DNA of 64,000 bases from Nymphaea colorata (taxonomy: Eukaryota; Streptophyta; Magnoliopsida; Nymphaeales; Nymphaeaceae): positions 4,564,723 to 4,628,722 of the forward strand of contig NC_045145.1 of the NCBI RefSeq assembly GCF_008831285.2. The letters are read 5' to 3'. The translations under genes and the position numbers were made by a program. Below, piece after piece: positions 2,650-52,896 of the stretch. Position 1 is the first letter of the stretch. The number at the start of each line of letters is the position of its first letter. The notes beneath the pieces were generated by a model. It saw only the letters and a program-made list of their open reading frames with translations. It had not been told where the DNA came from and made no database searches.

Positions 2650-2651
2650 TG

Positions 2652-8600: not shown

Positions 8601-8613
8601 ATATTGTTGCAAC

Positions 8614-8755
8614 TAGGGCTGCATAACGAGCCAAGCTAACTCTGGTTCGACTCGAACTCACTTGAAAAAACTCGGCTCTTGATAAACTCAAACTCGCTCT
8701 AAAAAACTCCGCTCATGCTCGACTCATTTATAACGAGCCATGCTTAAGCTTACAA
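8614..8755. mobile_element. Single terminus of a TAGGGCTG hAT-type element
   Basis: Begins TAGGGCTGCATAACGAGCC and continues with degenerate CTCGACTC and ACTCGGCTC subterminal motifs, the same terminal family as the elements at 16290 and 30308. The opposite end is not found, so this is a truncated copy. It lies just beyond the 3' end of the polygalacturonase gene. Confidence 0.55.
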
Positions 8756-19516: not shown

Positions 19517-20440
19517 TAGGCCTGGGCATCAGGCCGGGCCGGGTACCAGGCCTGGTCGACCATGCCCGAGGCCCAGTCCAGCCCGTTTTCCATTTTTGTT
19601 AACTGGCGGGCCGGGCCGGGTCTTGCGGCACCCCCTCCCAGCTGACCCAATGAATCCCATCCCGACAACGGCTGTCCTCAGCTTCCTCTCGGCGGTATAC
19701 GAAAACTCTCCCGGCAGGCTAAGAGAACAAATTCCTGCCTCGCATCGGTAACTCTCATTACCCCCTTCCTCAATCCCTCCCCCTTTATCAATTTTCATCA
19801 ATCGCCTGATCTCTGGCGCTCACCCCTGTCTCCCCCTATATCCTTAACACCCATATTTGTGCTTTCTTGAGTGTTGCTCAATCGGAGCTTCCAAAACTGA
19901 TCGACAGGCTCGGCCCTCGCCACTTTCGCCGTCGTTGTTCGCCACCCGTGCCATCGCCGGCGTTCCTTTCGGTTTCTGAACCTCAGGTGCGCCGGAAGTA
20001 TTACCCCCATTTCATGTTGAATATTTATCTTAGTTATATTGTGAACAGAAGATTTCATTTGCGCTTAAAACCTTACATTATTTTATGCAGTTGTTGAGAC
20101 GAACCTGAAAATGCGATGGTGGCCCAGTGGTGGAGCGAAGACGGACCAGACGGTGGCGACGGTGGAAGACCTCTCTCTGCGGCGAAGGAAAAGAAAATGT
20201 GACGGGGAGGGAGGGCGCGGGACGGCGGGAGGAAGGAAATGAGGCCATCAATCGATTGACCTAACGAGTAACGGGCTGTTGGGCCGGGCCGGGCTTAGAA
20301 AGTAATAACCAGGCCCGGCCCATTAAGATATCGGGCCGGGTCGGGCATACTAAACTTAAGCCCGATAAGAAATATGTGTGACCCAGACCCGACCCATACC
20401 GGGCCGGCCCGGCGGTGGCCCGGCCCGACGCCCAGGCCTA
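19517..20440. mobile_element. Non-autonomous hAT-type element with exact 8-bp target duplication
   Basis: The termini are TAGGCCTGGGCATCAGGCC and, on the minus strand, TAGGCCTGGGCGTCGGGCC. AAACTAAC flanks it on both sides (19509-19516 and 20441-20448), an exact 8-bp duplication as hAT transposases produce. Subterminal regions are dense in GGGCCGGG and its complement. The 924-bp body is much more GC-rich than its surroundings and has short frames (19798-20058 minus, 19867-20097 plus) without a recognised domain. No transposase is present. Confidence 0.85.
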
Positions 20441-27183: not shown

Positions 27184-28867
27184 TAGTTTCTTTGGTTAGG
27201 AAGTATTGTGAAGATGTGCATAAATAGGCAGTAATTTCTTCGGTTATGAAACATTGTGAATGTGTGCATAGATGGGCAGATACTTTCTTTGGTTAGGAAG
27301 CACTATGAAGAAAGTACCTCTTCATAAATATAGAAGAGGTAGAGAGAGAAACTGGTTCTTACGAATTTGAGGAATTTTGTGGGATAGGAGATGAGGAGCA
27401 CCATGGGCAAAAGAAGACTGCCACGAAGGGACCAATGACTCTTCATGTTCTTTCAGGAGAAGTCGTTGCAGAGATCATAGCATGCATTGTTTCTTCATCG
27501 TCGGCCATGTTGTCAGTTCCTGATCTTGCCAACATGAAGCTCACGTAAGTTTTCTGTCTTCTACAACAAATTCAACTTTCAAGCACTCTTCATGGATTCT
27601 CTAAAGGATTTCATTCAATGGGATGGGCATGTGCAAGATGTTGCGTGAAGCTGCAGTGGATAGATGGGTGCTCAGACGAGCCACCATTATGGATGGATCT
27701 CGAAGGTTGGGCTGGTGGTTGTAACGACCGAGCTCATGGTCGTTGGTATTGGATTGTGTAGAGACAGGAAATCAACTAGCAGCCTGTGTTCTAGGCATGG
27801 TATGAATTTGTAGTTCTTTTTTCTATATTACAGGTTTAATCTTTTTATACGATAATGTTTTTCTATTATCTTCATAGGTTGCAACACACGCCAAGTTTTG
27901 TCTCTCTCTCTCTTTTATATTTATGAAGAAGTAGTTTTTCTTTACAAACTAATCGAAGAAACTACCTGTCTATTTATGCACACCTTCATAATGTTTCTTA
28001 ATCGAAGAAACTACCTACCTACCTATTTATGCACACCCTCACAGTGCTTCATAACTGAAGAAACTATTGAAGCCAGTAGAACTAATTGATGAACATAGCT
28101 AATGGTTCAGCTCCTCGAATGTTGTTCATAATCAAATCTTCAAAGTGAAAGCTGAGGATGATCTTGTTTGTAATTAGACACAAGCTGAATAAATGTATAT
28201 TACGATTATATTAAGATTTTTCTTTCAAGAACTTTAGTGATAAAAGAAAGGGTTTCAACGTTAAATAGAGGTTAGCTTTTGCTTCAGTAGAACTTACAAG
28301 CTTAAGGTACATGTATAGTTGCATGTGTGAGCGCACACATACACATGATTTCTTCTAATCAGACTCTAATAAAGATTTTAAAATATTGCAAATGTGATTT
28401 ATGTTCTCTCACCTGGGAACACACATGGTTGTTTTTGTTCAGGATCTAATAAAGGATTATAAATTAATATTGCAAACATGATTTGTGTCCTCTCATTTGG
28501 GAATATATATTGAGTGAAGGTGTGAGAATGGACAATTATATTTGGCTCGCTAGCTCTCTTGCATTGACTTGTACTAATGATCATGGTTTCATGCTATATA
28601 TTCTTCATCACAGCGCAACTTATCACTACCTGTGAAAGGATTTTCCTCTTCTTTTCTTTAAGAAGGGCACCCGATCATCGAAGTACCTTAACATTGAACT
28701 TTGGGATTATTTTTTCTCATGGCATTTATCAAACTTTGCAAGATGTTCTAATTTATTTTAATAAGAAAAAGCAAACAAAAATATGGGGCTGTGAATTCTT
28801 CAATAGTTCCCTTCGAGCAAACAAAATAAAGCATGCCATCTAATTTTTAGTAAGGAGCTCTTGTTAG
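27184..28867. repeat. 1.68-kb segment duplicated at 38530-40214 (source copy)
   Basis: Direct repeat with offset 11,346, becoming 11,347 after a one-base difference in an A run near 27618 (TTCAATGGG against TTCAAATGGG at the other copy). I saw no other difference by eye. It includes F-box unit 7 and about 0.8 kb of unrecognised flank. Both breakpoints are sharp. Confidence 0.9.
27403..27799 (+). pseudogene. F-box fragment, array unit 7
   Basis: A small deletion after the start (ATGGGCAAAAGAAGACTGCC) throws exon 1 out of frame. The acceptor is GCAT. This unit and its downstream flank to 28867 are repeated almost exactly at 38530-40214. Confidence 0.7.
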
Positions 28868-29672
28868 CATGCTTCAAAGATTATATAACAATGCCAGCCA
28901 CTTTCGTAACCTACATAAAGTTCCTTTAATGAAATGCTTAGCCAATGTTGAGGGTAATCTCACCATAAAGGAGAACGATAACAAATGCACATTGAATCAC
29001 CAAGTCGGCCTTCTTTGCATAAGCAAGAGAAAGACCTGCTCCCCAAGTGAGAGTTGAAGCCTCCCTGCCTCGAGAATGTAGGGCTGCATATGTGTTTAAG
29101 TTGGAGTCTGCACCTTATGTTCATAGTGCATCACTTTACAGCCATTAGCACAAGAGGTGTGTGGTACCCATACCACCAGAACCAGGAACCAATCACCTAC
29201 CAGCCCATGGCCCAAGCCGGTCTCCCAACGCCTTTTGGGGCACCAAGGAAGCCTTTTTAACTCACTGATCTTTCACTTTGAAGGATATACTAAATCTAGT
29301 AAGAAGCAAGTAGCTAGGGCCTGCTAGGGTCTTGAATTGTCTAATCTTATGGAGGGGGTTTAACACCCACAAAAAAACATACCAAGAACTTGTCTTTTAC
29401 TAGTCACTAGTCTGAGTAGCTATGTCAAACCCCTTAAAAGGCTCTTTGAAGGCTCTACATCACTTAGATAAAATAGAGAACATCTATTAATTAAATTCTA
29501 TGCATTGTGTCTATAATGCTCTTTTAATGATGATATTGAGTTATTGGGCATCTTGAGGGAAAAATCCTTCTCTAACTAGAGATAAATGTCTTAGCATGAA
29601 CCAATTGCACATTGTATTAGCATGTGGCACTTCCCAATGGCCACCTATGGCCACATGTCCCAAGTACAACTT
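28068..29672. other. Intergenic, no supported gene
   Basis: Contains a roughly 80-bp imperfect tandem duplication at about 28350-28510 (both units hold CTAATAAAG and TATTGCAAA, then a CTCTCA...TGGGAA stretch). Open frames at 28577-28843, 28869-29057 and 29054-29260 carry no domain that I recognise. Confidence 0.4.
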
Positions 29673-29959: not shown

Positions 29960-30240
29960 AACACCACATCAATAAAAGTCACAAAATTTTAGTGGCACAA
30001 TTGGCGTTAGGAAAAGGAACAAACATGGAACTTCAAAACTGATTTTTAGTGACATGTAATCTTTCACGTCAGTAAAAGTTCATGTTTTACTGACACAAGA
30101 TGAAAACACCAGTAAAAGTATCAATGATCCCACTTTTACTGACATTCATGTGGAAATATCAGTAAAGATTTTACTGGCATTTAGCTTAATTTTACTTACG
30201 TTTTTCTCACCTCAGTAAAAACACCCTTTCGAATATCCCT
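29960..30240. repeat. Block of repeated CAGTAAAA/TTTTACTG motifs
   Basis: GTCAGTAAAA-like decamers occur several times in both orientations (for example near 30077, 30095, 30112, 30137, 30158 and 30172). This resembles the subterminal region of a DNA transposon, but no termini or target duplication were identified. Confidence 0.35.
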
Positions 30241-30307
30241 CACACAATTGGTTATGTGCTGACCTAAAGGTTAACTTGGTGAAACAAACAACTAATAACT
30301 CTATGAT

Positions 30308-33300
30308 TAGGGCTGCACAACGAGTCGAGCTACTCGAGCTCGACTCGTTTAATAAACGAGCTGCTTATTTCGTTAAACGAGTCGAGCTCGAGTTAACGAG
30401 TCGACTCGTTTAACTAATCGAGTCGAGTTCGTGTTCACTCAAGTGGGCTCATTAAAACTCGACTCGGCTTGATTAGTTAATGAACCAATTAAAAAAACCG
30501 GTTCAGAAGCTTATCACAGGCGGGAAAGTTTTTTCACTTTAGGGTTTTGTTTTTTCACTTTTTAGGGTTTTGTTTTTTCATTCTCCCTCTCTCCGACTCC
30601 GACTCTCCCTCTCTCGGTCTCTCCGTCGTCTCTGACTTCTTCTTCTCTTCTCCCGTTCTCCGCCTGTGTTCTCTGCTCTGCGCTCCTGCCGGCTCCCGCC
30701 TTGCTTGTGCTCTTCTCCTTCGCTCACATACCTCCGCCTGGCGCCTGTGCTCTGCGCTCCTAACCTAAACTAGAAGCCATTCCCTCTACCTGAATCCGTC
30801 ATTTCGTGGTTTCCTTATGTTGTCATCTTCCTCTTGCCCCTCTCTTCCGCCCACCATCTTCGCATCCTCAGCCCGGCAGTCCGCTTCTTCCGGCTCGCAG
30901 ACTCTCAGTACTCCCTTACTGTGTTTCCCGTCATTAATATTAAGAGGCTGTCCAAGATTCTAGCTATCGTTGAGGAGAAATCGACAGTGGAAACATCGGT
31001 GCCTGAGGAATCGACGCCAGAGGCCGTGCATCACCCAAATTACTTTGTAGGTGATTTCATTCTTGCCTCTTGATTTTCTTCCAAGGTATTTAGGCTGAAT
31101 CTCATGAGTTCATATGTACTAGAAATGCATCTAAGGTAATGCACGAAAATGTTGTAGACTTTTGATCGACTTGTTTTATGGCCTTCTGGAAAAAAGTGTC
31201 TGGAATCATGTTCACGTTTTTTTTGGTGGAGTCTCCTTTCTTCCTTATTCTTTCATTTTTTTGTTAGCCATGCTCGTGTTCATGCTTGTTTACGGTTTGT
31301 GTTCTATGTTTGTCTACGATCTTGTTTCTCTTTCTTGTTCTAACTTTCTAATTGCCTAGCTTTGGAAAGATGCATCATCTGTAGCTCTTTTTTTGCACAG
31401 AGTGACAAGATCTAGGGCTAGGACAAGTTCTCTTGAAGTCCTTGAGAAAAGGGAGCACAATGATAAAGATTGTGATCTGCTTCTTGGTGCATTCAACTCA
31501 TTGTTTACAGTTCCATTTTTATTGTTCATCCTCAAAAACAATCTACTTACAGGATCTGTACCTTCAACGCTGTCACAGATTCCTAATCTGAAAATATTGT
31601 AAGTTGTCATTTTATATTTTATTTCATCAAATTTTTCTTTGGTTTGCTGAACTTTCCTTTTTGTGCTGTCAGGGATCTAGCACAAAATAACTTAATTGGG
31701 GAAATACCACGACTTATTTATTGGAATGAAGTTTTGCATTGGTTCCAGGTCACTTCAGGGCAACAGATTGAGTGGGGAGATTCCATCAGTAATTGGCTTG
31801 ATGCAGGCTCTTGCTGTTCTGTGAGCATCTTAATAACAAACACAAGCCTCTTTTACTTACTTTTTGAAATCATATAGAAGATAAAGCCTCTTAGCATAGA
31901 TTAGATTGTAATACATTATTAAATGTAACCAACATTATTAGATTCTTCTGGACATGCTAGGAATGCCATCTCAAATATGGAGATGCAATATTCCTTAAGT
32001 GTATTTATCATGCCAAAAGTTTTTATTTTATTTACTTTCTTTCTGCATCAAGCTGTGTGCCTGTGTGATAGACGAGATCCATCTGATAACAAATTTGGTA
32101 TTGAACCAGGGACTTGAGCTGCAATCTTTTGACTAGCCCTATTCCTCCAATACTCGGAAACTTGACTTGCACTGAGAAACTGTAAGTATGTATTAAGTCT
32201 AAAAGTTGGGAGTTTTATATCAATTACTTCGTTACCTACCAGTTCAAAGTTTGTAATGCTTTAAGCATGAGCTTTGCTTGCATTGTTTTGTGACACGTTC
32301 TGCATTCTTCAATGCTATTTTTTGTTGATATTTTAATGGAGAACTTATCAATTTTAAATGTTCAAGACTAGAACATGTCCACTTAGTTGATCCCTTGGGA
32401 AAAAGGTTTATATAGAAGGAAAGTTGTGATGTTTGATGTTTGATTGTGATCAAAATTGAAAGTTTCAAGAAATGAACTGAAGTTTTGTTTCTTTACTTTT
32501 CAGCATTTTTGGAAGCGTGTGCTTTTTCCTTGTTGATAAACAGCATTTTTTCATTTTGTTCAAAATTGGTTGACTTAGCCCTTTGGAGTTTTGGATGATT
32601 ATTGATATTGCTGTGTTTTTTGAAAGCAATGTCCTGATTTGTTTTCATTTCCTTTTTCTCTTTATGTAGCTAGCTTACCCTGTTCATGTTGAGAACACAG
32701 GTATTTGCATGGAAACAAGTTGATGGGTTCTCGTTTCTGCACAATCTAATCCTGTGTGGGTTTCCAGAAACCTGGCTAACAACAATCTTGAAGGGCCCAT
32801 TCCATGTAATATTAGTTTCTGTGTGAACCTGAATAGCTTGTACGTTATTAAGTATACTTCTGTTGTTTATTGCTGTTACTTCCATTTGTCCACAATGCTT
32901 TTTCTGTTTTCTTCCCCTTCTAAGTCTTGTTTGAATGCAGCAATGTGCATAACAACCGATTGAATGGAACCATACCAGCTGCATTTCAACGGCTTGAAAC
33001 TATGTCATACTTGTAAAATTGCCCTCTCTTGCGGGTTGATGTTGCTTTCTGCACATTATGTGGATTGAGATGTTGGCATACCGATTCTTGCATTCTTGAT
33101 GTTTTTGCTACCATTATTCCTTTGTCCTGATTTAACAGGAGTACGTTGCATAGTCCCTTTTCATTTCATCTATCCTGTGATTTTCAATTATCCTGTCTCT
33201 GGTCAATCTATATCCTTGGATTTTCTTGATTCTAAATGTCACTATTTCGTGTAATTATCTGGGAAAAAAATTTATCAATGGGGTTTTAGGAGTTTAGTGT

Positions 33301-33943
33301 TTTGATTCATGAATGTTTGGTCCCGAGCATGTCCTTGAGTTGGTGATTAATTATGTATCTGTATTACATCTGTAGGAATTTATCATCAAACAATCTTCAG
33401 GGTGTTTGCATTCAGGGATATTTCTGATAACAAGATCATTGGCTCTATTCCACCGTCCATTGGAGATTTGGAACACTTCCTCAATTTTTTAGCTTTAACA
33501 TTTGATAAGTGTAATTATCAGATAAATGAATTTCATTTGTGCTACTTCTGTTTCTTATGTTAATCATTATTTATCATGCTTTTAATCGAGCTTTAAATGA
33601 GCTCGATAAGGATGAGTAATATTAGTCGAGCTCACTTATTCGAGCCTTAGTCAAGCTCACGTATTCGAGCCTTAGTCGAGCTCAACAAGTATGGATGACT
33701 GTAAACGAGCTTATCGAGCTTAATCGAGCTGAGCTCGAGCTCGACAAGTATGGATGACTGTAAACGAACTTATCGAGCTTAATCGAGTTGAGCTCGAGCT
33801 CGACAATTGACTATCGAGTCGAGTTCGAGCCAGGATAGTCGAGCTTTATTCGAGCTCGAGCCGAGTCGAGCTCGTGTCATTCTTAGTCGAGCCGAGTTCG
33901 AGCTGACCGAGCTCTGGCTCGACTCGGCTCGTGTTCAGCCCTA
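30308..33943 (+). mobile_element. Non-autonomous hAT-type transposon carrying ERECTA-like gene exons
   Basis: The left end TAGGGCTGCACAACGAG and the right end (minus strand) TAGGGCTGAACACGAGCC are inverted repeats. An exact 8-bp duplication TCTATGAT flanks the element (30300-30307 and 33944-33951). Both subterminal regions are crowded with GAGCTCGAG and GACTCG motifs; near the right end a unit of about 68 bases with AAGTATGGATGACTGTAAAC is tandemly duplicated. The 3,636-bp body has a CT-rich leader (30580-30760), unrecognised exon-like frames (about 30834-31073, 31397-31500) and, from 31511, leucine-rich-repeat exons of a receptor kinase. No hAT transposase was found, so this is a gene-capturing (Pack-type) element needing a transposase in trans. 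Confidence 0.88.
31511..33487 (+). pseudogene. Captured ERECTA-family receptor-kinase LRR exons
   Basis: ERECTA-family kinases are plasma-membrane receptors controlling organ growth and stomatal patterning. Exon-like pieces: 31511-31598 (TLSQIPNLKIL), 31673-31820 (DLAQNNLIGEIPRLIYWNEV, then in another frame LQGNRLSGEIPSVIGLMQAL), 32110-32181 (SPIPPILGNLTCTEKL), 32701-32742 (YLHGNKLMGS), 32768-32839 (NLANNNLEGPIP), 32941-33012 (NVHNNRLNGTIPAAFQRLET), 33376-33400 (NLSSNNLQG), 33416-33487 (DISDNKIIGSIPPSIGDLEH). Order and wording follow the ERECTA ectodomain, and three pieces are exactly 72 bases, the one-LRR exon size of that family. Introns remain, so capture was from genomic DNA. The second piece fuses two non-adjacent LRRs, several are shortened, and the kinase domain is missing. 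Not a functional receptor. Confidence 0.85.
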
Positions 33944-33951
33944 TCTATGAT

Positions 33952-38300: not shown

Positions 38301-38531
38301 AATGTTTTACATTTTTTCAATCATATAGGGTAAATGCATTCACGCATTCTCACCCACTTTATTTCACTTATGATCACAAGCACCTCTCCAAAGGAACTTA
38401 AGTAAGAAGGGATGGAGCTCTAGCTAGGTGGTAACCGAATTAGAGCAAAATCTCAAACCTACTTAAAGTCTTAAGAGAACACTAAAGAGATTTCAAAATG
38501 TTTTCACAAGTTTTTCAAATGATATTTACTA
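35309..38531 (+). repeat. 5' LTR, lacking its last about 300 bp
   Basis: Begins TGTAATCACCCCAAATTTTT. It aligns with 59809 to about 63151 and then leaves the LTR at GATATTTACTA|G, where the 1.68-kb duplicated segment starts. It differs from the other LTR stretches by many substitutions and indels, whereas those two are almost identical to each other. Its TATA box is altered (TATAGATA, 36056-36063). Confidence 0.88.
35398..37140 (+). repeat. Three tandem-repeat blocks inside the LTR
   Basis: Block 1 (about 35398-35590): about 33-bp units containing CAGATCCAAATTAAATCC, six or so. Block 2 (about 35595-36040): about 68-bp units with ACCGATTTGCCCCTCC and GGTGATTTTAGTC, about seven. Block 3 (about 36414-37140): four longer units, each with AGAGACAAGAGGCTA or a variant. 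The blocks recur at 49322-50970 and 59894-61760. Confidence 0.85.
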
Positions 38532-40214
38532 GTTTCTTTGGTTAGGAAGTATTGTGAAGATGTGCATAAATAGGCAGTAATTTCTTCGGTTATGAAACAT
38601 TGTGAATGTGTGCATAGATGGGCAGATACTTTCTTTGGTTAGGAAGCACTATGAAGAAAGTACCTCTTCATAAATATAGAAGAGGTAGAGAGAGAAACTG
38701 GTTCTTACGAATTTGAGGAATTTTGTGGGATAGGAGATGAGGAGCACCATGGGCAAAAGAAGACTGCCACGAAGGGACCAATGACTCTTCATGTTCTTTC
38801 AGGAGAAGTCGTTGCAGAGATCATAGCATGCATTGTTTCTTCATCGTCGGCCATGTTGTCAGTTCCTGATCTTGCCAACATGAAGCTCACGTAAGTTTTC
38901 TGTCTTCTACAACAAATTCAACTTTCAAGCACTCTTCATGGATTCTCTAAAGGATTTCATTCAAATGGGATGGGCATGTGCAAGATGTTGCGTGAAGCTG
39001 CAGTGGATAGATGGGTGCTCAGACGAGCCACCATTATGGATGGATCTCGAAGGTTGGGCTGGTGGTTGTAACGACCGAGCTCATGGTCGTTGGTATTGGA
39101 TTGTGTAGAGACAGGAAATCAACTAGCAGCCTGTGTTCTAGGCATGGTATGAATTTGTAGTTCTTTTTTCTATATTACAGGTTTAATCTTTTTATACGAT
39201 AATGTTTTTCTATTATCTTCATAGGTTGCAACACACGCCAAGTTTTGTCTCTCTCTCTCTTTTATATTTATGAAGAAGTAGTTTTTCTTTACAAACTAAT
39301 CGAAGAAACTACCTGTCTATTTATGCACACCTTCATAATGTTTCTTAATCGAAGAAACTACCTACCTACCTATTTATGCACACCCTCACAGTGCTTCATA
39401 ACTGAAGAAACTATTGAAGCCAGTAGAACTAATTGATGAACATAGCTAATGGTTCAGCTCCTCGAATGTTGTTCATAATCAAATCTTCAAAGTGAAAGCT
39501 GAGGATGATCTTGTTTGTAATTAGACACAAGCTGAATAAATGTATATTACGATTATATTAAGATTTTTCTTTCAAGAACTTTAGTGATAAAAGAAAGGGT
39601 TTCAACGTTAAATAGAGGTTAGCTTTTGCTTCAGTAGAACTTACAAGCTTAAGGTACATGTATAGTTGCATGTGTGAGCGCACACATACACATGATTTCT
39701 TCTAATCAGACTCTAATAAAGATTTTAAAATATTGCAAATGTGATTTATGTTCTCTCACCTGGGAACACACATGGTTGTTTTTGTTCAGGATCTAATAAA
39801 GGATTATAAATTAATATTGCAAACATGATTTGTGTCCTCTCATTTGGGAATATATATTGAGTGAAGGTGTGAGAATGGACAATTATATTTGGCTCGCTAG
39901 CTCTCTTGCATTGACTTGTACTAATGATCATGGTTTCATGCTATATATTCTTCATCACAGCGCAACTTATCACTACCTGTGAAAGGATTTTCCTCTTCTT
40001 TTCTTTAAGAAGGGCACCCGATCATCGAAGTACCTTAACATTGAACTTTGGGATTATTTTTTCTCATGGCATTTATCAAACTTTGCAAGATGTTCTAATT
40101 TATTTTAATAAGAAAAAGCAAACAAAAATATGGGGCTGTGAATTCTTCAATAGTTCCCTTCGAGCAAACAAAATAAAGCATGCCATCTAATTTTTAGTAA
40201 GGAGCTCTTGTTAG
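38530..40214 (+). repeat. Second copy of the 1.68-kb F-box-array segment, inside the 5' LTR
   Basis: Nearly identical to 27184-28867, including an eighth F-box fragment (38749-39146) with the same frameshift and lost acceptor. It replaces the last about 300 bp of the 5' LTR and the expected primer-binding site. The left junction shares only the dinucleotide TA with the LTR. No target duplication flanks it. Confidence 0.88.
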
Positions 40215-40923
40215 TATGTCCCCTATTTTGGCCTCGACCCCATTGGCATTTCATTGCATTGTTTGATGATTGTGAATGTTTTCTTGCACATAGGACTAAT
40301 TGAGAAGGATCAATCATGTTCACACATATTTATGATCACATACCACCCTTCTCAATTTAGGAGTTGTTTGAAAGCCATGTTTGCTCTTCTATTTTAATCT
40401 TCAAACTTATGCAACATTGCATTAGAGACAAGTCAATTTATATGATTTCTCATATTTCAAAATTCCTCATACCTATTTGTCCCGGTCATCATGTTGCCGG
40501 GCTTGGTCTTTGGCGGTAGCACAAGACTAAGCCTTACAACTAGACCACACCTTGGGCGGGAACGCCCCCTCGTTAGTACCATGAGTAGTAATTTATGGTA
40601 TATCGACGAGTGATCAAGAAGAAGTTGATGAACTCTACCCTTAGTTGCCTAAGGAAGAATCTATGCTTGTACTAAGCCATTTGGCTAAGGTATATAAGCA
40701 TAACTTGATATCGGATTATCGCGACACAAAATTATCTCAATTAGGTTCCTATACCCAATTTTCTAAAAAAAAAGAAAATTATTTCATGATAGATGTTGAT
40801 GTGCGTGAAACCTTATGTGATGATTTGCAACCTCATTCCACACATCTACCTCATATTGTCTTTGTCAACCTAGTCAATGTTTTCCACTAATTCAATTTTT
40901 ATCTTTTAGAGTCATCATTCAAG
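40215..40923 (+). other. Retrotransposon leader region, first copy
   Basis: Between the inserted segment and ORF1. I could not find a tRNA primer-binding site. One frame (40645-40890) has no domain. From 40489 the sequence is repeated after the N gap at 51080. Confidence 0.55.
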
Positions 40924-42145
40924 ATGTATTCTTTCCAACATGGTGTCACATTCCCTTATGATCACATCCTCTTTGGGGAAGGTCCCGAACGGTCCACCTA
41001 CATTTCTCTTGAGTCTCAACCTTTGGCTCCCGAATGGTATCGGACTTGGCATCCCACCTTCTCTCGGATGTTTCCTTCTTACTTTGAAGAATGTGGGCTA
41101 GAGATAGTGGCAGCTGGAGGAATGCAGTCAGTTGATGGAAATTTGGTACATGCAATCGCCGAGCGTTGGAACCCAAGGACCTCCTCTTTTTGGTTTCCAT
41201 GGGGAGAAATGACAATATTACTAGATGAATTTGCCGAAATACTAGACCTCCCAACCCCAACTTGTGACCCAAATGATCTATTGGAAAAACAATTCCTTAT
41301 GAACCCAACCAATGTCAATGCAAATGACCTCATTGCTCACTTTACTGGACGGAAAACTTGGCCTTTAGTAGAAAACCATGAAAATCAAAGCATCAACATG
41401 AAAAATTTGTATGAAGAATTTTGGAACCTATGTTGAACCTTCTACCCTACCTCGAAAAGCCATAGGGAGAATTAAACATTGTATGATGCTCTGCACAGTA
41501 GGAGTGACCCTTTTTACCGATGGAAGTGACATTTTAGATGTCCGTATTGCCCAACTTTTTCGAGTATGGGGGCATAGAGGGACCCGACACTTGTCAGTAG
41601 CAATGACAACCTTAGCCTTCCTTTACCGAGGACTCACCCGCTTTACCATTGGAGATATCGACTTCGTAGAATGATGCACATATGCTTTACAATTGTGGTT
41701 CCTCAAGCATGCGGGACCCCAAGCCAGTCTATTCAGAAACACTGATGGATCATTGACAACGTTGGAGCAATATCGTCGTTTGATCAAGCAATTGAATGAA
41801 GGAGAGATCATTTGGGATTATTGTGATCGTCGGCAGAGCCTACCCCGATACACTCACCATCATCATGGGCGTACCACACTCTTGGGCCCCTACTTCATAG
41901 TTGATTATTGTGCTGATAGATGTATGAGACAGTTCTCTCAAAGGCAGAAGATGGTCTCTGTGCATGCACCAATTGGAGCTATTCCCGAATTTGACCTTAG
42001 TTCTCCTCAATGGACAACATTGTTTGCAGTAACTCGACAAGAATGGAAGACACAAATATCATACACTTGGTTCATAGGTCCAGTGGTGAAGAAGGAATAT
42101 GCTGAGTGGTGGGATGCCAACCGACCACCATCCATCCTTCCCTAA
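40924..42145 (+). pseudogene. Retrotransposon ORF1, plant-mobile-domain-like protein (copy 1)
   Basis: The extra ORF upstream of gag starts MYSFQHGVTFPYDHILFGEG. Its core AERWNPRTSSFWFPWGEMTI followed by LLDEFAEILDLP matches the plant mobile domain (PMD) pattern 'W.....F..P.GE.T..L.D...LLGL', known from plant MAIN-like proteins and from some retrotransposons. It is about 400 residues overall but broken: a frameshift at about 41411-41436 and an in-frame TGA at 41672-41674. Its role in the element is unknown; an ORF of unknown function preceding gag is a reported feature of Ogre elements. Confidence 0.65.
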
Positions 42146-42317
42146 AAAGTTTTATGTTGTCAACTTTGTATTCCTTCTGTCGTTGTCATCTTTATTAGTA
42201 CCTTTGGATGTAACTTTTAAAAACTTGTAATGCAATATGAACCTTCATTTTGTCATCATTTCCGTCCAATAACTCTATTTTCTTATGTCATAAGGTGAAT
42301 ACTTGAAAGCCAACAAG

Positions 42318-43737
42318 ATGGTTGAAACTAGATCGCAAGCTAAGCAGACTCCTCAAAACGAGGCTTCATCCTCTGAACTCCGTCCAGAAACACTTGGCCT
42401 CCCAGCAATCGAGCCAGAAGCTTACTATATGTTCCGTTTGTTCATGGAGCGATTCATGAAAGATCAAGAAGTGCAAAAGGCCTTGATGGTTACTCCAGAA
42501 CCGGATAATGAAAAGACTGCCAAGCAAAAAAGAAAAAAGAAAAACAAGTCTTTTGTTGAAAATCAGGATGAAAGCTATTTGGGTTCAGATTCGGCAATTA
42601 GTAAAGAAGAAAAACCCGAACTGTTTTCTCTCAAAAAGAAAAAGACAACAAAGAAAAATAAAAAGGAAAAAGATGTTATGATAGAAAACAGCTCACCCAG
42701 TCCTATCACCACTGAAAGTTCGGAAGAGAAGCCCAAAAGGAAGACAAAACCTACCAAGAAAGTCAAAAAGACAAAGAAATACATCACTAGCAACAGCTCA
42801 GACAGTGAGAGTTCTGAAGAAAAAGAAAAGGAGATCAAGGGCAACAAGAAAAGACCAAGCCAGAATTGATCGAATCAAGTGATGATGAAAGTCCGATTAA
42901 GCGCAGATTCTATGAAATGGAGAAAAGAATGAACAATCTTGAGCTTAGGGGGAAGGAGGAACGTTCATACTCATGTGATGACTACTACCTTGGCATTGAA
43001 GGGGACGAAGACGTGAAAGGCTTGCCCAGAGAATTCATCAGATATGATGGAACCACTTGTCTACACATTCATCTTTAAACATTTTTCAATGATTGCTACA
43101 AAATTCTGACAAATAACAGAGCTTTGTTCTGATATTTTCCAAGAAGCCTTGAAGGCATTGCCGCACAATGGTATAAAGAAAATATCAATCCGATCGAGCT
43201 GAATGAGTTTGACAAGTTGATTAACATGTTTGTTGAAAGATTTGAATAAAATGCTCCCATGGCTCCAACCCTCAGTACCATTTGCAGTCTTCGTCAGAAA
43301 CAGTGAGAAAAGGCTCGAGAATTCATCAAAAATGGAGAATTCAATGCAATAAGATGAAGGAGCCCATTTCTGAAACACAAGCCTTGTCACTCATTAGGAA
43401 AAATCTTGTCCAACCTTTGAAAAGTCTCATCCGCAATGCCCCAATCAAAACCTTTGCTGAGTTAATTGAACAAGCAAACTCGATAGAAGAAGGAATTGAG
43501 GAAGGAGATTTTGATAGAATTATTGTTCCTAAGTACAAAGAAGATGGAAAGAAAGAAGGAAGGACACAACTGCCTGCACAATTCATAGCCAATACTGGCA
43601 TTAGAAATGACCATGATAATAACTACAAGCATGACAAGGGAGTTAGTTTCAAGAAGAACACACAGTTTCTTAAAGGCGACGATGAAAGGAAAAAAAACAC
43701 CCAGGTTGGAGCTACGACCGGAAATTCACTCCTTTGA
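42318..43737 (+). pseudogene. Retrotransposon gag (copy 1)
   Basis: Starts MVETRSQAKQTPQNEASSSE and has a long Lys/Ser/Glu-rich low-complexity region. A Retrotrans_gag-like segment follows (LEGIAAQWYKENINP, then NKMKEPISETQALSLIRKNL). Frames change at about 42866 and again around 43079-43340, where several stops occur. The structural protein cannot be made intact from this copy. Confidence 0.75.
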
Positions 43738-45095
43738 GCCAGTCTCGGGAGAAGATCCTGGAATACCTTCTCGCCAAAGGAACTATCGTCTCGCCAAAAA
43801 TATCAGAGCCTCCGAAAATGATGGGAGGAAATAAAGAAAAACTGTGCAAGTTTCATCGTACCTCTGGTCATGACACTGAGGATTGTTTTGTCCTCAAAAA
43901 TATTATTCAAGACTTCATCAACAAAGATCTCAAGATTTGTGATGATAGTACCCCTAAGATACTAAGGAATCCATTCCCTGACCACGGGAAGGCGGCAGTA
44001 GCCATGATCACTACAGGCACTCCACTTCCGTACCATCCACAAGAGCACATTCGACCTTATATTGGGAGCAGCTCACACAAAGTCATGGTGGTAGACCAAG
44101 GTAAGGAACCTCTAGATTTCATTGCTATGATGAATGGCAGGATAGAAAGTTTGCCCAAGAAACTTCTTATGATTCCAAAGACTTTTATCTTACAAGGCGA
44201 TGAATCATCAAATGACTCCTCAGATGAAGATCCATGCTATTTGGACGTTCTCCCCTTGGAAGAGCGTATGGATGAGGGAGACTCGATTCAAGCTTCTAAA
44301 AATCAGTCAATTACCTTCTCAGAAAAAGACCTCTCAAAATGGGGATATTTCCATGAAGATGCTCTTTACATCGTTGTTCAGGTCAATGGGATGACGGTGC
44401 CACATGTTTTGATTGATGGAGGAAGTGGTTTGAATATTTGTCCTGATCTCACGGCTAAAACATTGAGGTTTCGTGAAAACAAATATCGTTCTGATAATAC
44501 CAAGATCTACAGATACGATGGCCGAGGCATGAACAGCAAAGGTACCCTCGACATGAATGTGATCATTGAAAATACTAACCATTGCATTGTATTTCATGTG
44601 GTAGATGTACCACCATCATACAACCTGCTTTTGGGACGACCTTGGATCTATCAAGTACGAGGGATCTCATCCACTCTTCATCAATGCCTGAAATGGAATT
44701 TTAGTCTATCAGTCATCACTGTCCGTGCTGAGGATCCGGTCAAGAGGTTGATGCAACCTATGCTCCCTAGGCCAATTGATCCGATAGATGTACCGAGCAT
44801 AAGAACAACAAAGGACAGACCTTTGGAAGAATGGAAGAACATGGAGATAAGGGAATCATCTGGGAATGCTTATACTATTTCAAGCAATCGTGCAAGTTAC
44901 CAAGAACACCTATTGTATGTTCATTTCATGAAAAACCCGAAGGGTTTTCAGTTGCTTCTGAAAGGTGGCTACCCTCCATTCACTGGCCTTGGGAAAAATG
45001 AAGATGGCATCTTGCAACCGATTAGCATCTCTTTTCAGATGAACATGAGAGGACTGGATATCATGAAGGAATTTGAAGAAGATCTTGGGGGCTAA
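43734..45095 (+). CDS. Retrotransposon gag C-terminus and aspartic protease (copy 1)
   Basis: A 453-residue open frame. A zinc-knuckle-like CKFHRTSGHDTEDC lies at about residues 38-51. The protease active-site region is VLIDGGSGLNICP at about 225-237 (Asp-Gly-Gly in place of the commoner Asp-Ser/Thr-Gly), and LLLGRPWIYQ at about 300 is the second conserved protease motif. A G-patch-like GYPPFTGLGKNEDGI is near residue 415. It overlaps the preceding gag frame by four bases. The protein would process the polyprotein, but the rest of the element is defective. Confidence 0.75.
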   Translation: MSQSREKILEYLLAKGTIVSPKISEPPKMMGGNKEKLCKFHRTSGHDTEDCFVLKNIIQDFINKDLKICDDSTPKILRNPFPDHGKAAVAMITTGTPLPYHPQEHIRPYIGSSSHKVMVVDQGKEPLDFIAMMNGRIESLPKKLLMIPKTFILQGDESSNDSSDEDPCYLDVLPLEERMDEGDSIQASKNQSITFSEKDLSKWGYFHEDALYIVVQVNGMTVPHVLIDGGSGLNICPDLTAKTLRFRENKYRSDNTKIYRYDGRGMNSKGTLDMNVIIENTNHCIVFHVVDVPPSYNLLLGRPWIYQVRGISSTLHQCLKWNFSLSVITVRAEDPVKRLMQPMLPRPIDPIDVPSIRTTKDRPLEEWKNMEIRESSGNAYTISSNRASYQEHLLYVHFMKNPKGFQLLLKGGYPPFTGLGKNEDGILQPISISFQMNMRGLDIMKEFEEDLGG

Positions 45096-45431
45096 TAGTA
45101 TTCACTTTTGTTTCAAAATCCTCGCATGAATTTTGTAATTTTGAACATCTTTTTGTCTCGTCTCATGAGAGAACTCATTCTATGAACTAAGAACCTTTTT
45201 TTTATATATGCAAATGTAAGTAATTTTTTGTTGTCAATTTCGTTCAACTCTTTCCTTTATCCTCTTTACAGGATGTTGGAACTCAATATGTCTCAGTTTA
45301 TTCTTTTTCCACGAAAGTTCCCCCAGAAAGCATTTATCGAACAAGCAGTCGGTGAAATGGAACCTATGGCAATACCCGAGTCGGAATTACCAGAATTCAC
45401 TTAGATTCAGAAACAAGAACATCCCTCATCT
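45096..45431 (+). other. Non-coding gap between protease and reverse transcriptase (copy 1)
   Basis: Stops occur in all plus frames. It contains AATGTAAGTAATT (GT at 45216) and a strong acceptor-like CCTCTTTACAG ending 45271. Ogre elements are reported to splice out an intron between protease and RT. Here a donor upstream of the stop at 45093 would be needed and none is obvious. Confidence 0.45.
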
Positions 45432-48400
45432 TTGGTGAATGATCCAATTGAAGAAATTAATATTGGAACCAGTGAAGATCCTAAAATTCTTCAAATTGGC
45501 ACCAGTTTGTCAGTGGATGAGAAGAAAAGATTGGTGGACTTTCTTATAAGTAACCAAGAAGCTTTTGCTTGGACTTATGAAGATATGCCAGGCTTAGACC
45601 CCCAATTGGTCGAACATCGTTTGCCATTAAATCCTAATTGCAAGCCGATTAAGCAAAAATTGCGTAAGCTTGACCCTCGACTAGAAGGCCCTGTAAAAGA
45701 AGGACTAAAGGACTTGCTAAAGGCAAAATTCAATCGTGCCATCGATTACCCCGAATGGTTGGCGAACATCGTGGTGGTCCCCAAGAAAAATGGCAAAGTT
45801 AGGTTGTGCATCGACTTTCGAGACTTGAACAAAGCCACACCGAAGGATGATTATCCTCTTCCAAACATTGATCTATTGGTAGACAGTACTGCAGGCGATG
45901 CAATGTTTTCTTTCATGGATGGATATTCGGGATATAATCAAATCAAATTAGCAGTCAAAGATCAACTTAAGACCGCTTTTACTACACCCTGGGGTACTTT
46001 TTGTTACACAGTAATGCCATTTGGGTTGAAGAATGCTGGAGCAACCTATCAAAGAGCCATGGCCGCCATCTTCCATGACCAGATGCATAAAATCATGGAT
46101 GCATATATCAATGACATATTGATCAAATCCAAGTCAAGAGAAGATCACATTGAAACTCTTGCCCAAGTATTCGAGAGGCTTTTACAGTACAAGCTTCGCC
46201 TGAATCCTCAAAATGTGTGTTTGGGGTTGAGTCAGGCAAACTGTTGGGTTTCATGGTCAGTAAGAAGGGAATTGAAATGGATCTTACAAAAGCTAAGGCA
46301 ATAATTGATATGCCACCACCTACCAATATCAAGGAGTTGCGAAGCTTGCAAGGACGAATCCAATCCATCAGACGATTCATTTCCAATCTGACCATGAGAT
46401 GCGAGCCATTCAACCAGCTACTGAGGAAAGGTGTCAAGTTTGAATGGGGTTTTGAATGCCAACAGTCATTCAAAAGGATCAAGAAATACCTTCTAAATCC
46501 ACCAATTCTAAAACCACCAACGTTGGGCAGACCATTACTGCTTTACATCACAGTGAATGAGTCAGCATGTGGCGGCTTTTTGGCACAATATGAGGAAGGA
46601 AGTCGCATCGAACATGCAATCTATTACATTAGCAAGACTTTTGTTCAGTACGAAAAGAAGTACTCTCCAATAGAGAAAACTTGTCTGGCATTGGTTTGGA
46701 TGTGTCAGAAGTTGAGACATTATTTATTAGCTTGTGAGGTCAACATACTCTCCAAACTAAATCCTTTCAAGTACATCTTGGAACAACCATTCCTTAATGG
46801 GCGTATCGCAAAATGGCAAGTTCTGTTGATGCAATATGATCTTGAATATGTGTCTCAAAAGTCAATGAAAGGACAAGCAATTGCGGATCAATTAGCAGAC
46901 TTCCCTCAGTACGAAGAAATCAGAACAAATGATGAGTTTTCAGATGAACATGTACTAAGATTGAAAACGCGTCCGACTTGGAAGATGTACTTTGACGGGT
47001 CCAGAAATGTGATGGGAGCAGGCATAGGCATCTTACTCATCACTCCAGAAAGCGAAATGATCACGTACTCTTTGAAACTTGATTTTTCATGTACCCATAA
47101 CATGGCTGAATATGAAGCCCTCATACAAGGACTTCGTTCTTTATTGAGTTTTCAAGTGAAAAGAGTGAATGCCTTCGGCGACTCTCAGCTTATTATAAAT
47201 CAAGTGAATGGAGAATGGCAAATCAAAGATGAAAAGTTGATGTCATATCAAGAAATTGCTACCTCCTTAATCTGTCAATTCGAAGAAGTACAATTGGCTC
47301 ACGTAAAGAGAGAAGGTAACCCTATTGCGGATGGCCTCGCGAGCTTAGGATCGACCATCACTTTTCGAACCAATGAAGCAATCCGTTTTTTTGAGATTGG
47401 AAGATTAGAACACCCTGCTTTTGAAACGATGACGCATGTTCATCATATCCAAGGGGGAATACGCCTTGGTACCATGACATCAAAAGGTACATTGAAAGCG
47501 GAGAATTCCCGACTAAAATGTCTAAAAATGAACAAAAAGCAATACAACGTATGTCAGCGAGGTACTTTATCCTAGCAGGGGTATTATACAGACGTGGATT
47601 TAGCACTGAATACTCTCGGTGCCTTGATGAAGATGAGGCAAAGAAAGTAATCGAAGAATCACATCGAGGAGATTGTGGAGGCCATGTTGGTTACCAAACC
47701 CTCACCAAACAAATAATTCGAGCATGGTATTATTGGCCTACCATGCAAAAAGATTGTCACCAATTTGTCAAAAGATGCAAAGAATGCCAACTGCATGCTC
47801 CAGTAATTCATGCCCCAGCCTCTCATTTGCATTCTGTGACATCTCTTTGGCCATTTTCAATGTGGGCCTTTGACGTAGTCGGACCGATATCCCCTGCAGC
47901 TTCTAACGGTCATATGTATTTTCTTGCTGCAACAGATTATTTTACCAAGTGGGTAGAAGTCGTTACACTCAGAACAATGGAATGACGTCATGTAGTGTCC
48001 TTCATTCACAAAATCTTCTTTGCTGATTTGGAGTCCCTCATGATATAGTATCAGACAACGGAACTCATTTCAAGAATGAAAAGATGAGGCAATTGTGCAG
48101 CAAGTACCACATCACGCACCATTTTCAGCTCCTTATTACCCCAAGGCAATGGGCAAGCAAAGGCTACCAACAAGATCCTGATCCGCATCTTGGAACGGAC
48201 AGTAGAAACTGGAAGAGATTGGCATGAAAAGATGCACAACGCTCTATGGGTATATCGCACCACTATGAGAACTCCAACAAATGCCACTCCAGCAGAGCTA
48301 GTCTATGGAACAGAAGTGGTTCTACCATTACATGTGTTGAAACCTGCTTTGAAGTTCGCTTCTCTCATAGAGCTCCCTCTTACTCAATATCAACAAAAAT

Positions 48401-48710
48401 GCTAATGCAACTCGATTTGCTAGATGAAAAGAGGCAAAAAGCGGCTGAACATGCTGAAGCTTATCGCCAAAGGGTAGCCAGACAATTTGCCAAGTCAGTT
48501 ATCGAGAGACAGTTCAAAGTGAATGATTCAGTCCTACGATCTGCAGTGTACCTGAGAGGACGACCACGAGGCAGGTGGGCACCAAATTGGGAAGGCCCAT
48601 ATGTCATTAAGGAAGTTTTGCCCCACAATTTATACCGACTAATTGATGCTGATGGGGTGGAATTTGCCGATCCTGTTAATGCCCTTCACCTCAAGAAATT
48701 TTATGCCTAG
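45432..48710 (+). pseudogene. Retrotransposon pol: RT, RNase H, second RNase H, integrase (copy 1)
   Basis: RT motifs include RLCIDFRDLNKATPKD, FSFMDGYSGYNQIK and VMPFGLKNAGATYQR. The YxDD box reads YIND (Asn codon at 46110-46112). The RT-linked RNase H has YSPIEKTCLALV. A second, archaeal-type RNase H (MYFDGSRN, NMAEYEALIQGL, FGDSQLIINQVNGEW, HVKREGNPIADGLA) is characteristic of Tat elements. The integrase zinc finger H-H-C-C (HVGYQTLTKQI to CKECQLHAP), first Asp (WAFDVVGPI) and C-terminal module (WEGPYVIKEVLPHNLYRL) are visible. The catalytic Glu of NGQAEA is Lys (48160-48162). Single-base losses at about 46213 and 47455, a TGA near 47983 and further shifts break it. Confidence 0.85.
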
Positions 48711-48845
48711 TTCTCTTGTATTCATTTTTCAATCAATGTCAAAACATTTGTGTTTCCACATCGACTATTCAATCTAGATTCTTCCCAGTTGTAAAACATG
48801 ACAATTACACTGGGGCATTTTTATTTTTTATTTTTTTTATCGCTC

Positions 48846-49130
48846 AGGGCTTGAGAGCAACCTGTGCAGGTGAAGGGTTAAACCTGCAATATGATGGCAA
48901 CCCATGCAGGCAAGGGATTAAACCTGCAATGCTAGCCAAATCAACCCATGCAGGCAAAGGGGTTAAACATGTGCTACAAGCCAAAGCAACCCACACAGTT
49001 AAAGGGTTCAACTTGTGATGCAAGTCAAGGCAACCCATTCAGGGGGTTAAACCTGAATTTGAAATTGGGCAAACCCATGCAGGTAAGGGGTTAAACCTGC
49101 AATTTAAGCTCAAACAACCCATTCAGGTAA
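48846..49130 (+). repeat. Minisatellite in the retrotransposon 3' untranslated region (copy 1)
   Basis: About six or seven units of roughly 45-50 bp containing AACCCATGCAGGCAAGG and GGTTAAACCTGCAAT. The same array is at 59416-59700. Confidence 0.85.
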
Positions 49131-49220
49131 GGGGTAAAGCAAACATTTCTATGAAAATGTCTTGTTTGAAAATTTGTGGCGTTTATCTTTGTCACTAGCA
49201 CGGCTAACACCGGCTTATTA

Positions 49221-49234
49221 ACAAAGAGGGCATC
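49221..49234 (+). promoter_or_regulatory. Polypurine tract before the middle LTR
   Basis: ACAAAGAGGGCATC immediately precedes the LTR start TGTAATC. The copy before the last LTR reads ACAAAGAGGGGCATC (59794-59808), one G longer. It would prime plus-strand DNA synthesis. Confidence 0.6.
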
Positions 49235-50979
49235 TGTAATCACCCCAAATTTTCTAAAGGACTATGATGTTTTATCCAAGTGCGAAATTCAAATTTAGGC
49301 ACAAGATTTCCAAAATACAACTTCAGATCCAAATTAAATCCAAAATACTACTCTTAGATCCAAATTAAATTCAAAATAGTACTTTCGGATCCAAATTAAA
49401 TCCAAAATACTACTCTCAGATCCAAATTAAATCCAAAATAGAACTTTCAGATCCAAATTAAATCCAAAATACTACTTTTAGATCCAAAACCCAAGTTCAG
49501 ATCCAAATCAATCATTAAGACTATTTACCATTTCTTTTGACCAAAAACCTCCTTTTAGAGGGTGATTTTAGTCTTTTTGGGCAAACAAGACCGATTTGCC
49601 CATCCTTTTGACCAAAAACCTCCTTTTAGAGAGTGATTTTAGTCTTTTAGGCAAACAAGACCGATTTGCCCATCCTTTTGACCAAAAACCTCCTGGTGAT
49701 TTTAGTCTTTTTTAAACAAGACCGATTTGCCCTTCCTTTTGACAAAAAAACCTCTTTTTAGAGGGTGGTTTTAGTTTTTTTAAACAAGACCGATGTGTCC
49801 CTCCTTTTAACCAAAAAACCTCCTTTTAGAGGGTAATTTTAGTCTTTTTCAAACAAGACCGATTTGCCCCTCATTTTGACCAAAAAACCTCCTTTTAAAA
49901 GGTGATTTTAGTCTTTTGGTAAACAATACCAATTTACCCCTCCTTTTGACCAAAAAAACATCCTTTTAGATGGTAATTTTAGTCTTTTTGGATGGACACG
50001 ACTCATTTGCCCTTCCTTTGGCCAAAAAAATCTCCTTTTGGAGGGTGATTTAGTCTTTTTAGGTCAAAAAATTCAAATTTTGGGTTTTGGCTCCAAAATT
50101 CTCTATAAATACCCCCCCATATCCTCCCTCTTGGGCAAGATAGGTCCTTAGGAGAAACTCTAGTATATTCTCACTTAAAGACTTAGAGTTTCTCTTGAGC
50201 TCTCTCTCTCTCCCTCTTCCTCTTTCTATTTCCTTCTCCAACTTAGAGCAAGCACTCTTGGAGCTTCATTCAAAAGGGGATCTTCAAGTGAAGGTGTTCA
50301 TCTTTCTTAGGTCATTTCCCATTAGAGGTATGTAATCTTCATCTCTCTCATTTCTCTCTTCTTTCTTTTCATTAATATTCTTATTATTATGTTATTTTTT
50401 TTCTTAAATATAGTCTTGTTGTTTTTCATTTTCTCTTTACATCTTCATCTCCCCATGGCCAAAGGAGATAGCACTCAACCTCTTTTTAGAGACAAGAGGC
50501 TTATGCTCAAATACACCAGGAGCATGAGAAGATGAGATGATATTTTATTTTATGATTAAATCATGTTCTTTCAAGTATTCTTGTTGTTCTTGTTCTTTCT
50601 CTTTATCAATATCTTCTTGCTCTTTCTTCTCTTCAATATATTCTTGTTGTTGTTATTCTTTTCCTTAATGATATATTTTTGTTGTTATTGTTATTTCATT
50701 TCTTCAATATAGTCTTGTTCTTGTTATTTTCTTTTTTTCTCTTCTTCATCTTCCCATGATCAAAGGAGATAGCCCTCAATCTCTTTTAGAGACAAGAGGC
50801 TATGCTCAAGTACATTGGGAGCGTGAAAAGATGAGAGGATCTTTCATTTCATAATTGAATCATGTTTTCTCTTTTTATTAAATATAACATTGTTTCTCTT
50901 TCTACATTTTCTCCTCATCTTCATCTCCCCACGGCTAAAGAAGGTAGCTCTCAATCTCTTTTTAGAGATGTTTTTCTTT
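49235..50979 (+). repeat. Middle LTR stretch, cut off by the N gap
   Basis: Begins TGTAATCACCCC and follows the 59809 LTR closely, sharing its private variants (for example ACTTTCGGATCC and the shortened CCTCCTGGTGATTTT unit) that the 5' LTR lacks. It ends in the middle of LTR sequence at the gap. A TATA box CTATAAATAC lies at about 50103-50112. Confidence 0.88.
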
Positions 50980-51079: not shown

Positions 51080-51512
51080 CATCATGTTGCCGGGCTTGGT
51101 CTTTGGCGGTAGCACAAGACTAAGCCTTACAACTAGACCACACCTTGGGCGGGAACGCCCCCTCGTTAGTACCATGAGTAGTAATTTATGGTATATCGAC
51201 GAGTGATCAAGAAGAAGTTGATGAACTCTACCCTTAGTTGCCTAAGGAAGAATCTATGCTTGTACTAAGCCATTTGGCTAAGGTATATAAGCATAACTTG
51301 ATATCGGATTATCGCGACACAAATTATCTCAATTAGGTTCCTATACCCATTTTCTAAAAAAAAAGAAAATTATTTCATGATAGATGTTGATGTGCGTGAA
51401 CCTTATGTGATGATTTGCAACCTCATTCCACACATCTACCTCATATTGTCTTTGTCAACCTAGTCAATGTTTTCCACTAATTCAATTTTTATCTTTTAGA
51501 GTCATCATTCAG
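51080..51512 (+). other. Retrotransposon leader region, second copy
   Basis: Matches 40489-40923 with single-base indels, mostly in runs (for example ACAAATTATC against ACAAAATTATC). No separate gene. Confidence 0.7.
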
Positions 51513-52724
51513 ATGTATTCTTTCCAACATGGTGTCACATTCCCTTATGATCACATCCTCTTTGGGGAAGGTCCCGAACGGTCCACCTACATTTCTCTTG
51601 AGTCTCAACCTTTGGCTCCCGAATGGTATCGGACTTGGCATCCCACCTTCTCTCGGATGTTTCCTTCTTACTTTGAAGAATGTGGGCTAGAGATAGTGGC
51701 AGCTGGAGGAATGCAGTCAGTTGATGGAAATTTGGTACATGCAATCGCCGAGCGTTGGAACCCAAGGACCTCCTCTTTTTGGTTTCCATGGGGAGAAATG
51801 ACAATATTACTAGATGAATTTGCCGAAATACTAGACCTCCCAACCCCAACTTGTGACCCAAATGATCTATTGGAAAACAATTCCTTATGACCCAACCATG
51901 TCAATGCAATGACCTCATTGCTCACTTTACTGGACGGAAACTTGGCCTTTAGTAGAAAACCATGAAAATCAAAGCATCAACATGAAAAATTTGTATGAAG
52001 AATTTTGGAACCTATGTTGAACCTTCTACCTACCTCGAAAAGCCATAGGGAGAATTAAACATTGTATGATGCTCTGCACAGTAGGAGTGACCCTTTTTAC
52101 CGATGGAAGTGACATTTTAGATGTCCGTATTGCCCAACTTTTTCGAGTATGGGGGCATAGAGGGACCCGACACTTGTCAGTAGCAATGACAACCTTAGCC
52201 TTCCTTTACCGAGGACTCACCCGCTTTACCATTGGAGATATCGACTTCGTAGAATGATGCACATATGCTTTACAATTGTGGTTCCTCAAGCATGCGGGAC
52301 CCCAAGCCAGTCTATTCAGAAACACTGATGGATCATTGACAACGTTGGAGCAATATCGTCGTTTGATCAAGCAATTGAATGAAGGAGAGATCATTTGGGA
52401 TTATTGTGATCGTCGGCAGAGCCTACCCCGATACACTCACCATCATCATGGGCGTACCACACTCTTGGGCCCTACTTCATAGTTGATTATTGTGCTGATA
52501 GATGTATGAGACAGTTCTCTCAAAGGCAGAAGATGGTCTCTGTGCATGCACCAATTGGAGCTATTCCGAATTTGACCTTAGTTCTCCTCAATGGACAACA
52601 TTGTTTGCAGTAACTCGACAAGAATGGAAGACACAATATCATACACTTGGTTCATAGGTCCAGTGGTGAAGAAGGAATATGCTGAGTGGTGGGATGCCAA
52701 CCGACCACCATCCATCCTTCCCTA
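51513..52724 (+). pseudogene. Retrotransposon ORF1, plant-mobile-domain-like (copy 2)
   Basis: Same protein as at 40924, with the same in-frame TGA (52255-52257) and additional one-base losses near 51876, 51892 and 52471 that break the frame further. Confidence 0.65.
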
Positions 52725-52896
52725 AAAAGTTTTATGTTGTCACTTTGTATTCCTTCTGTCGTTGTCATCTTTATTAGTACCTTTGGATGTAACTTTTAAA
52801 AACTTGTAATGCAATATGAACCTTCATTTTGTCATCATTTCCGTCCAATAACTCTATTTTCTTATGTCATAAGGTGAATACTTGAAAGCCAACAAG

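Follow-up and report, generated by a model that had tools for sequence, protein, structure and literature searches.

A probable Pack-type hAT element of Nymphaea colorata with intron-containing ERECTA fragments, and its ERECTA-bearing relatives

Results

Boundaries and ends of the element

The element localised at positions 30308-33943 (+ strand, 3636 bp) of the window is very probably a non-autonomous Pack-type hAT transposon. Its ERECTA cargo would have been captured once and then spread, the element itself would have lost its transposase by internal deletion, and the cargo is most likely carried passively. The window is the whole 64-kb stretch of DNA analysed here (C8:4564723-4628722), and the assembly searched comprised 407.8 Mb in 783 contigs. 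We call the element E and count its coordinates from 30308; coordinates preceded by P are those of the parent ERECTA gene. Members of the family carry genomic pieces of one ERECTA gene, with cargo junctions in common. E itself is non-autonomous and holds host coding DNA between its TIRs, namely fragments of ERECTA and of an RRM gene, as is characteristic of Pack-TYPE elements.

The limits of E were set from its TIRs, target-site duplication (TSD), subterminal repeats and family copies. The 8-bp duplication TCTATGAT was found at 30300-30307 and 33944-33951, both copies matching exactly, as the earlier note had claimed. The 5' terminal region (30308-30767, + strand) contains the TIR TAGGGCTGCACAACGAGTCGAGC, subterminal TCGAG repeats and a CT-rich leader, and is common to the copies L016 and L017 and partly to L018 and L030-L033; the 3' terminal region spans 33488-33943 (+ strand). 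Short TIRs, as expected of a hAT, are present as TAGGGCTG plus a gapped extension, the ends aligning as TAGGGCTG--CACAA--CGAGTCGAGC with TAGGGCTGAACACGAGCCGAGTCGAGC. This extended alignment had a local score of 33; no shuffle of the two ends out of 2000 reached it, and among 5000 random window pairs 3 did. Moreover, 37 of the 118 TCGAG/CTCGA sites of the window lay within 557 bp of the ends of E and none in its interior. The extended alignment and the subterminal clustering corroborated the inverted hAT ends previously proposed. No transposase was seen in E.

Identity and exon structure of the ERECTA cargo

A genome search placed the parent ERECTA gene on contig C10, within 15262500-15277000 of the minus strand. 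The ERECTA family has one-LRR exons of 72 bp, and the parent has 15 one-LRR exons across the captured stretch, with AG before and GT after the 72-bp exon in 14 of the 15. It continues into kinase exons, two of which match PF00069 (2.8e-11 and 9e-25), and thus has the layout of the family, an LRR ectodomain followed by a kinase.

The captured ERECTA DNA occupies 31467-33487 (+ strand) and corresponds to five blocks of P6414-9796 separated by four deletions; it begins inside an intron, and not at 31500 as had been given earlier. E is collinear with P6414-6481, 6914-7125, 7689-8689, 8939-9598 and 9711-9796, the deletions between these blocks being of 432, 563, 249 and 112 bp. Introns are kept in the cargo. 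Because the parent found in the same genome aligns with E across exons and introns, the capture was one of genomic DNA, and the claim that a hAT had taken up intron-containing ERECTA exons held when the suggested comparison with the parental locus was run and the C10 introns proved alignable to the cargo.

Nine exons, all on the + strand, could be delimited in E: e1 (31528-31598), whose acceptor was lost at junction 1; e2 (31673-31738), cut at junction 2 (31731-31738); e3 (31749-31820), of 72 bp and identical to the parent; e4 (32110-32181), of 72 bp; e5 (32701-32730), cut at junction 3 (32728-32730); e6 (32768-32839) and e7 (32941-33012), both of 72 bp; e8 (33376-33402), cut at junction 4 (33402-33405); and e9 (33416-33487), of 72 bp, with its acceptor kept and its donor lost. 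Five exons (e3, e4, e6, e7 and e9) therefore keep the 72-bp size, rather than the three counted earlier. The peptide encoded by the joined exons had ERL1 as its best match among 177,635 PDB sequences (E 4.8e-90), with 128 of 183 residues identical over the matched ERL1 stretches; ERECTA itself was absent among the best 60 of the 141 PDB matches. Identity was 142/184 to what we take to be the Arabidopsis ERECTA sequence. The ERL1 match and the parent gene together bear out the assignment of the LRR exons to the ERECTA family.

The four junctions show exact parent-to-parent overlaps of 4, 8, 3 and 4 bp. When 20,000 junctions were drawn at random within the parent, an overlap of at least 3 bp was obtained in 7.3%, of at least 4 bp in 2.6% and of at least 8 bp in 0.03%. 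At junction 1, which joins an intron to an exon start, the BLAST overlap was of 7 bp, of which only 4 bp were exact; junctions 2-4 lead from within an exon to a point shortly before a later intron ends. Substitutions between E and the parent amounted to 17/540 in exons and 108/1428 outside them, a contrast that is expected when a gene under constraint is compared with a copy free of it, and that does not prove neutrality.

A kinase stretch used as query had no match better than E 0.22 in the 64-kb window, and no convincing LRR exon was seen outside E within it. A continuation of the exons into a kinase domain outside the element, which the earlier note had named as a finding against capture, was not found in the window.

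Further donors

Upstream of the ERECTA cargo, the 5' part of a gene for an RRM RNA-binding protein occupies 30768-31188 (+ strand) in two blocks, 30768-31028 and 31033-31188 (E461-721 and E726-881), with 92.7% and 91.7% identity to the locus L027 on C9. Two frames of this locus match RRM_1 (1.7e-14 and 2.4e-5), and another copy of the C9 gene resembles it at about 92%. Positions 31194-31366 (+ strand) correspond to C4:21462758-21462928 (96% identity), and 31364-31463 (+ strand) to part of a 660-aa open frame on the minus strand of C5 (L041; 91% identity), in which no Pfam family was detected. The two 5' open stretches of E gave no Pfam matches. We considered the 5' segment as a coding region of the transposon itself and rejected this, since much of the segment is captured RRM gene. 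Judged from these alignments, E is a mosaic of four donors: ERECTA (C10), the RRM gene (C9), C4 and C5.

The family of ERECTA-bearing copies

When other elements with the same cargo were searched for, as had been suggested, further hAT copies with ERECTA pieces were found, some of them with common junctions. At least ten copies bear such pieces: E, L011 and L043 (C8), L016 (C7), L017 (C10), L030-L032 (C16), L033 (C12) and L042 (C11). In the search with E DNA the best 40 of 1598 candidates were scored, and in the search with the parental stretch all 17 of 17. The latter returned 33 rows, 24 of them in the ten hAT copies, one in the parent and eight at five loci that were not counted as hAT copies. 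One of these five, C6:4351134, had no pair of hAT ends around it; the others were C12:13148607, C7:13911983, C8:9981147 and C9:20023981-20024798.

The 8-bp TSD was exact in E, L016, L031, L032, L033, L042 and L043 and matched at 7 of 8 bp in L017, so that ERECTA pieces lie at eight sites having their own TSD and the cargo was mobilised with the element. L032 has one change in the 3' TIR and L043 a degraded 5' TIR. L030 and L031 have common flanks, with the 5' flank of L030 changed, and from this we take L030 as a probable duplicate of the L031 insertion. The flanks of L032 are also common to L030/L031, but its TSD is different. We also observed, by eye, that L030-L032 (C16:1.10-1.21 Mb) adjoin frames resembling the LRRs of NBS-LRR resistance genes; their long common flanks are as in a local gene cluster.

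Junction P8689/8939 of E was also present in L011, and P9598/9711 in both L016 and L017. The region E1671-2174 was compared among E, both arms of L011, L030-L033 and the parent; the transposon copies were 0.2-2.8% apart, whereas their distance to the parent was 5.0-6.7%. In a FastTree tree of the same region and copies the parent fell among the transposon copies, the inner branches were short and resolution was poor. Because the tree was poorly resolved, it is the common junctions and the distances that argue for a single ERECTA capture, which would then have spread.

L011 (C8:22160500-22167500) is an inverted duplication of an ERECTA-bearing hAT, with arms at 1170-2930 and 3608-5381 of that interval. 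The arms, of 1.77 kb, are 98.1% alike (20 mismatches and 13 gaps in 1774 columns) and are separated by a spacer of 677 bp; each has a stretch matching E1671-2576, which is ERECTA-derived. A single hAT end was found, the right outer end being truncated.

Some members have other cargo. In addition to ERECTA, L016 and L017 hold pieces of other loci in their middle 2.6 kb. One resembles at 97% a locus on C1, which has a frame with a malectin domain and exons that look by eye like LRRs; another resembles at 92% the upstream portion of a gene on C2, a later exon of which encodes a zinc-type dehydrogenase. Smaller pieces match C12, C4 and C9. L018 (C12:2733500-2740000, 1300-5075), a hAT of the same family with the TSD GTCTGAAT, had no ERECTA match and carries fragments of the RRM gene and of ribosomal protein L18A (PF01775, 2.3e-18).

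Transposase-bearing relatives

L030-L033, of 6.5-6.9 kb, have hAT transposase frames downstream of the ERECTA piece. The transposase of hAT elements combines a BED finger, an RNase-H fold and a dimerisation region. In a Pfam scan that covered L030, L032 and L033, PF14372 was detected in L032 and L033 (best 2.1e-30) and PF05699 in L033 (6.8e-27). A BED finger (PF02892) in L030 scored 18.0 bits, below the cut-off of 20.6, and the transposase of L031 was assigned by alignment to L033 only. L016 and L017 had no frame of at least 90 aa that read by eye as transposase. None of the four copies L030-L033 had an unbroken transposase frame, and because all four are interrupted a working transposase source was not seen.

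E3165-3313 and E3305-3636 match L030 2253-2402 and 6560-6837, which flank the L030 transposase. The two segments overlap by 9 bp at 33612-33620, the site in E of the transposase that is absent relative to L030 and L033; L033 gave the same pattern. Both transposase-bearing relatives aligned to E thus match it on the two sides of the absent transposase. Since four ERECTA copies carry a broken hAT transposase downstream, E looks like a transposase-deleted, Ds-like deletion derivative, as far as its anatomy indicates. L030-L033 hold less ERECTA than E; therefore E did not come directly from any of them, and a common ancestor with a longer cargo is required.

Other repeats in the window

A second hAT-like element, of 924 bp, lies at 19517-20440, with the TIR TAGGCCTGGGC and the 8-bp TSD AAACTAAC. 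The left flank of E (29980-30220) has many TTTACTGACA / CAGTAAAAGT repeats in both orientations (by eye) and resembles a subterminal region of some other DNA transposon. At 40487-50968 and 51080-61547 lie two copies of 10.5 kb with 99.5% similarity; their frames look by eye like Gypsy-type polyprotein, and the pair may be a retroelement in tandem or have arisen by recent duplication. A hAT lying between LTRs was ruled out: the flanking repeat 27184-28871 / 38530-40218 (1.69 kb, 1687/1689 columns identical, 99.9%) lacks TG..CA or other LTR-type ends. An Rfam scan of the window gave no matches.

Alternative readings of the element and its cargo

If the ends and TSD were coincidental, E would be a local ERECTA pseudogene. 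Forty Markov resamples of the window yielded, after filtering, 16 pairs of an 8-bp TSD with an 8-bp TIR; such a pair is therefore weak evidence when taken alone, and about 0.4 chance 8+8 bp matches per window speak for coincidence. However, the ends of E align over a much longer stretch and are accompanied by subterminal repeats, and seven further TSD-flanked ERECTA-bearing copies have ends identical or almost identical to these. The family copies rule out coincidental repeats, which had been listed earlier as a finding against the element, and the pseudogene reading is barely credible. Other readings have the cargo act on ERECTA. The earlier note had considered a decoy LRR peptide affecting the parental gene; such a peptide would compete with ERECTA, and a splice form minus two introns does contain an ATG frame of 71 aa that spans about 2.5 LRRs. 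It has no signal-peptide-like start (by eye), however, and no sense ATG frame was longer in any of 64 modelled splice forms (six assumed introns). On the unspliced minus strand, ATG frames of 104 and 84 aa occur. Read as fused exons, e2-e3, e5-e6 and e8-e9 measure 148, 139 and 112 bp, each 3n+1, so that three exon junctions shift the frame. Codon changes relative to the parent were 12 non-synonymous and 7 synonymous, cut-edge codons counted. Because the fused exons break the frame and the longest frame is of 71 aa, a decoy receptor is highly improbable and the earlier proposal finds no support.

The earlier note had also raised an antisense or siRNA effect. Among the copies, L011 would be the likeliest source of double-stranded RNA and is a candidate hairpin-RNA locus, and transcripts of the ERECTA elements, chiefly of L011, could be diced to siRNAs that lower ERECTA expression. 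The inverted arms, alike as described and each with an ERECTA-derived stretch, favour this, as do the perfect 21-mers to the 15 spliced parental exons: in a count covering E, L011, L016, L017, L030-L033 and L042, E had 193/1060, L011 80 and L030-L033 55 each. L017 had 23/1060. On the other hand, L016 had none and L042 only 7, and many such transposon copies are silenced. We consider an active cargo of this kind unlikely. The broader proposal of a hAT family harvesting genes in series (ERECTA, RRM, malectin/LRR, zinc-type dehydrogenase, ribosomal protein L18A and further loci), which retains captured host DNA in copies with transposase and tunes the parent by siRNA from an ERECTA hairpin, seems quite improbable to us. 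Passive baggage in neutral drift, with no receptor decoy, is the most likely state of the cargo.

Discussion

The element E probably arose when a transposase-bearing ancestor suffered an internal deletion, in the way that Ds derives from Ac; transposase supplied in trans would then have moved it. The mosaic of four donors and the 3-8 bp overlaps at the ERECTA junctions suggest template switching or micro-homology end joining, which would act during the repair of breaks within the element. Captured gene DNA sits within transposase-bearing hAT copies. With the parent, several donors and ten copies in one assembly, it can be traced step by step in which order capture, deletion and spread took place. 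L011 holds part of a developmental receptor gene in inverted-repeat form, and any effect that it has is testable with small-RNA reads.

No ERECTA capture by a hAT was reported in the titles and abstract openings found, mostly of non-subscription literature, and no literature match was found for hAT elements with TAGGG ends. Capture of genes by plant hATs, introns included, is already published, and E is a clear further example. The earlier description of such cargo as uncommon for a hAT thus stands only in part, since maize Ds, grapevine Hatvine-6 and Pack-hAT elements had been published. In the available part of the report on the Pack-hATs of maize and rice, elements including hATs are described as acquiring sequence by inserting in tandem and being mobilised again (PMC8903248). 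E resembles them in its hAT ends, 8-bp TSD, captured coding DNA and mobility; as far as that part of the report extends, E differs in that its donors are traced to ERECTA, the RRM gene and two more loci, and in that part of its cargo is also present in transposase-bearing copies (PMC8903248). Maize Ds2-22 and Ds-l4-354, in the portion of the source available, are hAT deletion derivatives with captured gene fragments that contain introns (PMC3260210). E is likewise a deletion derivative with introns kept in its gene fragments, whereas it belongs to another transposon family, has several donors and is one of at least ten copies with pieces of one gene (PMC3260210).

Grapevine Hatvine-6 elements have similar transposase and TIRs, and their remainder often matches exons and introns of grapevine genes; unlike them, as described in the accessible section of that report, E has an ERECTA cargo and a history of common junctions (PMC2528002). 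For animal Pack-TIR elements, the corresponding section of another report describes gap filling, template switching and short junction homology, with a median capture of 224 bp and one multicopy Pack-hAT in frog (PMC8277862). E shares with these elements the short homology at its junctions, while the genomes in that report are those of animals (PMC8277862).
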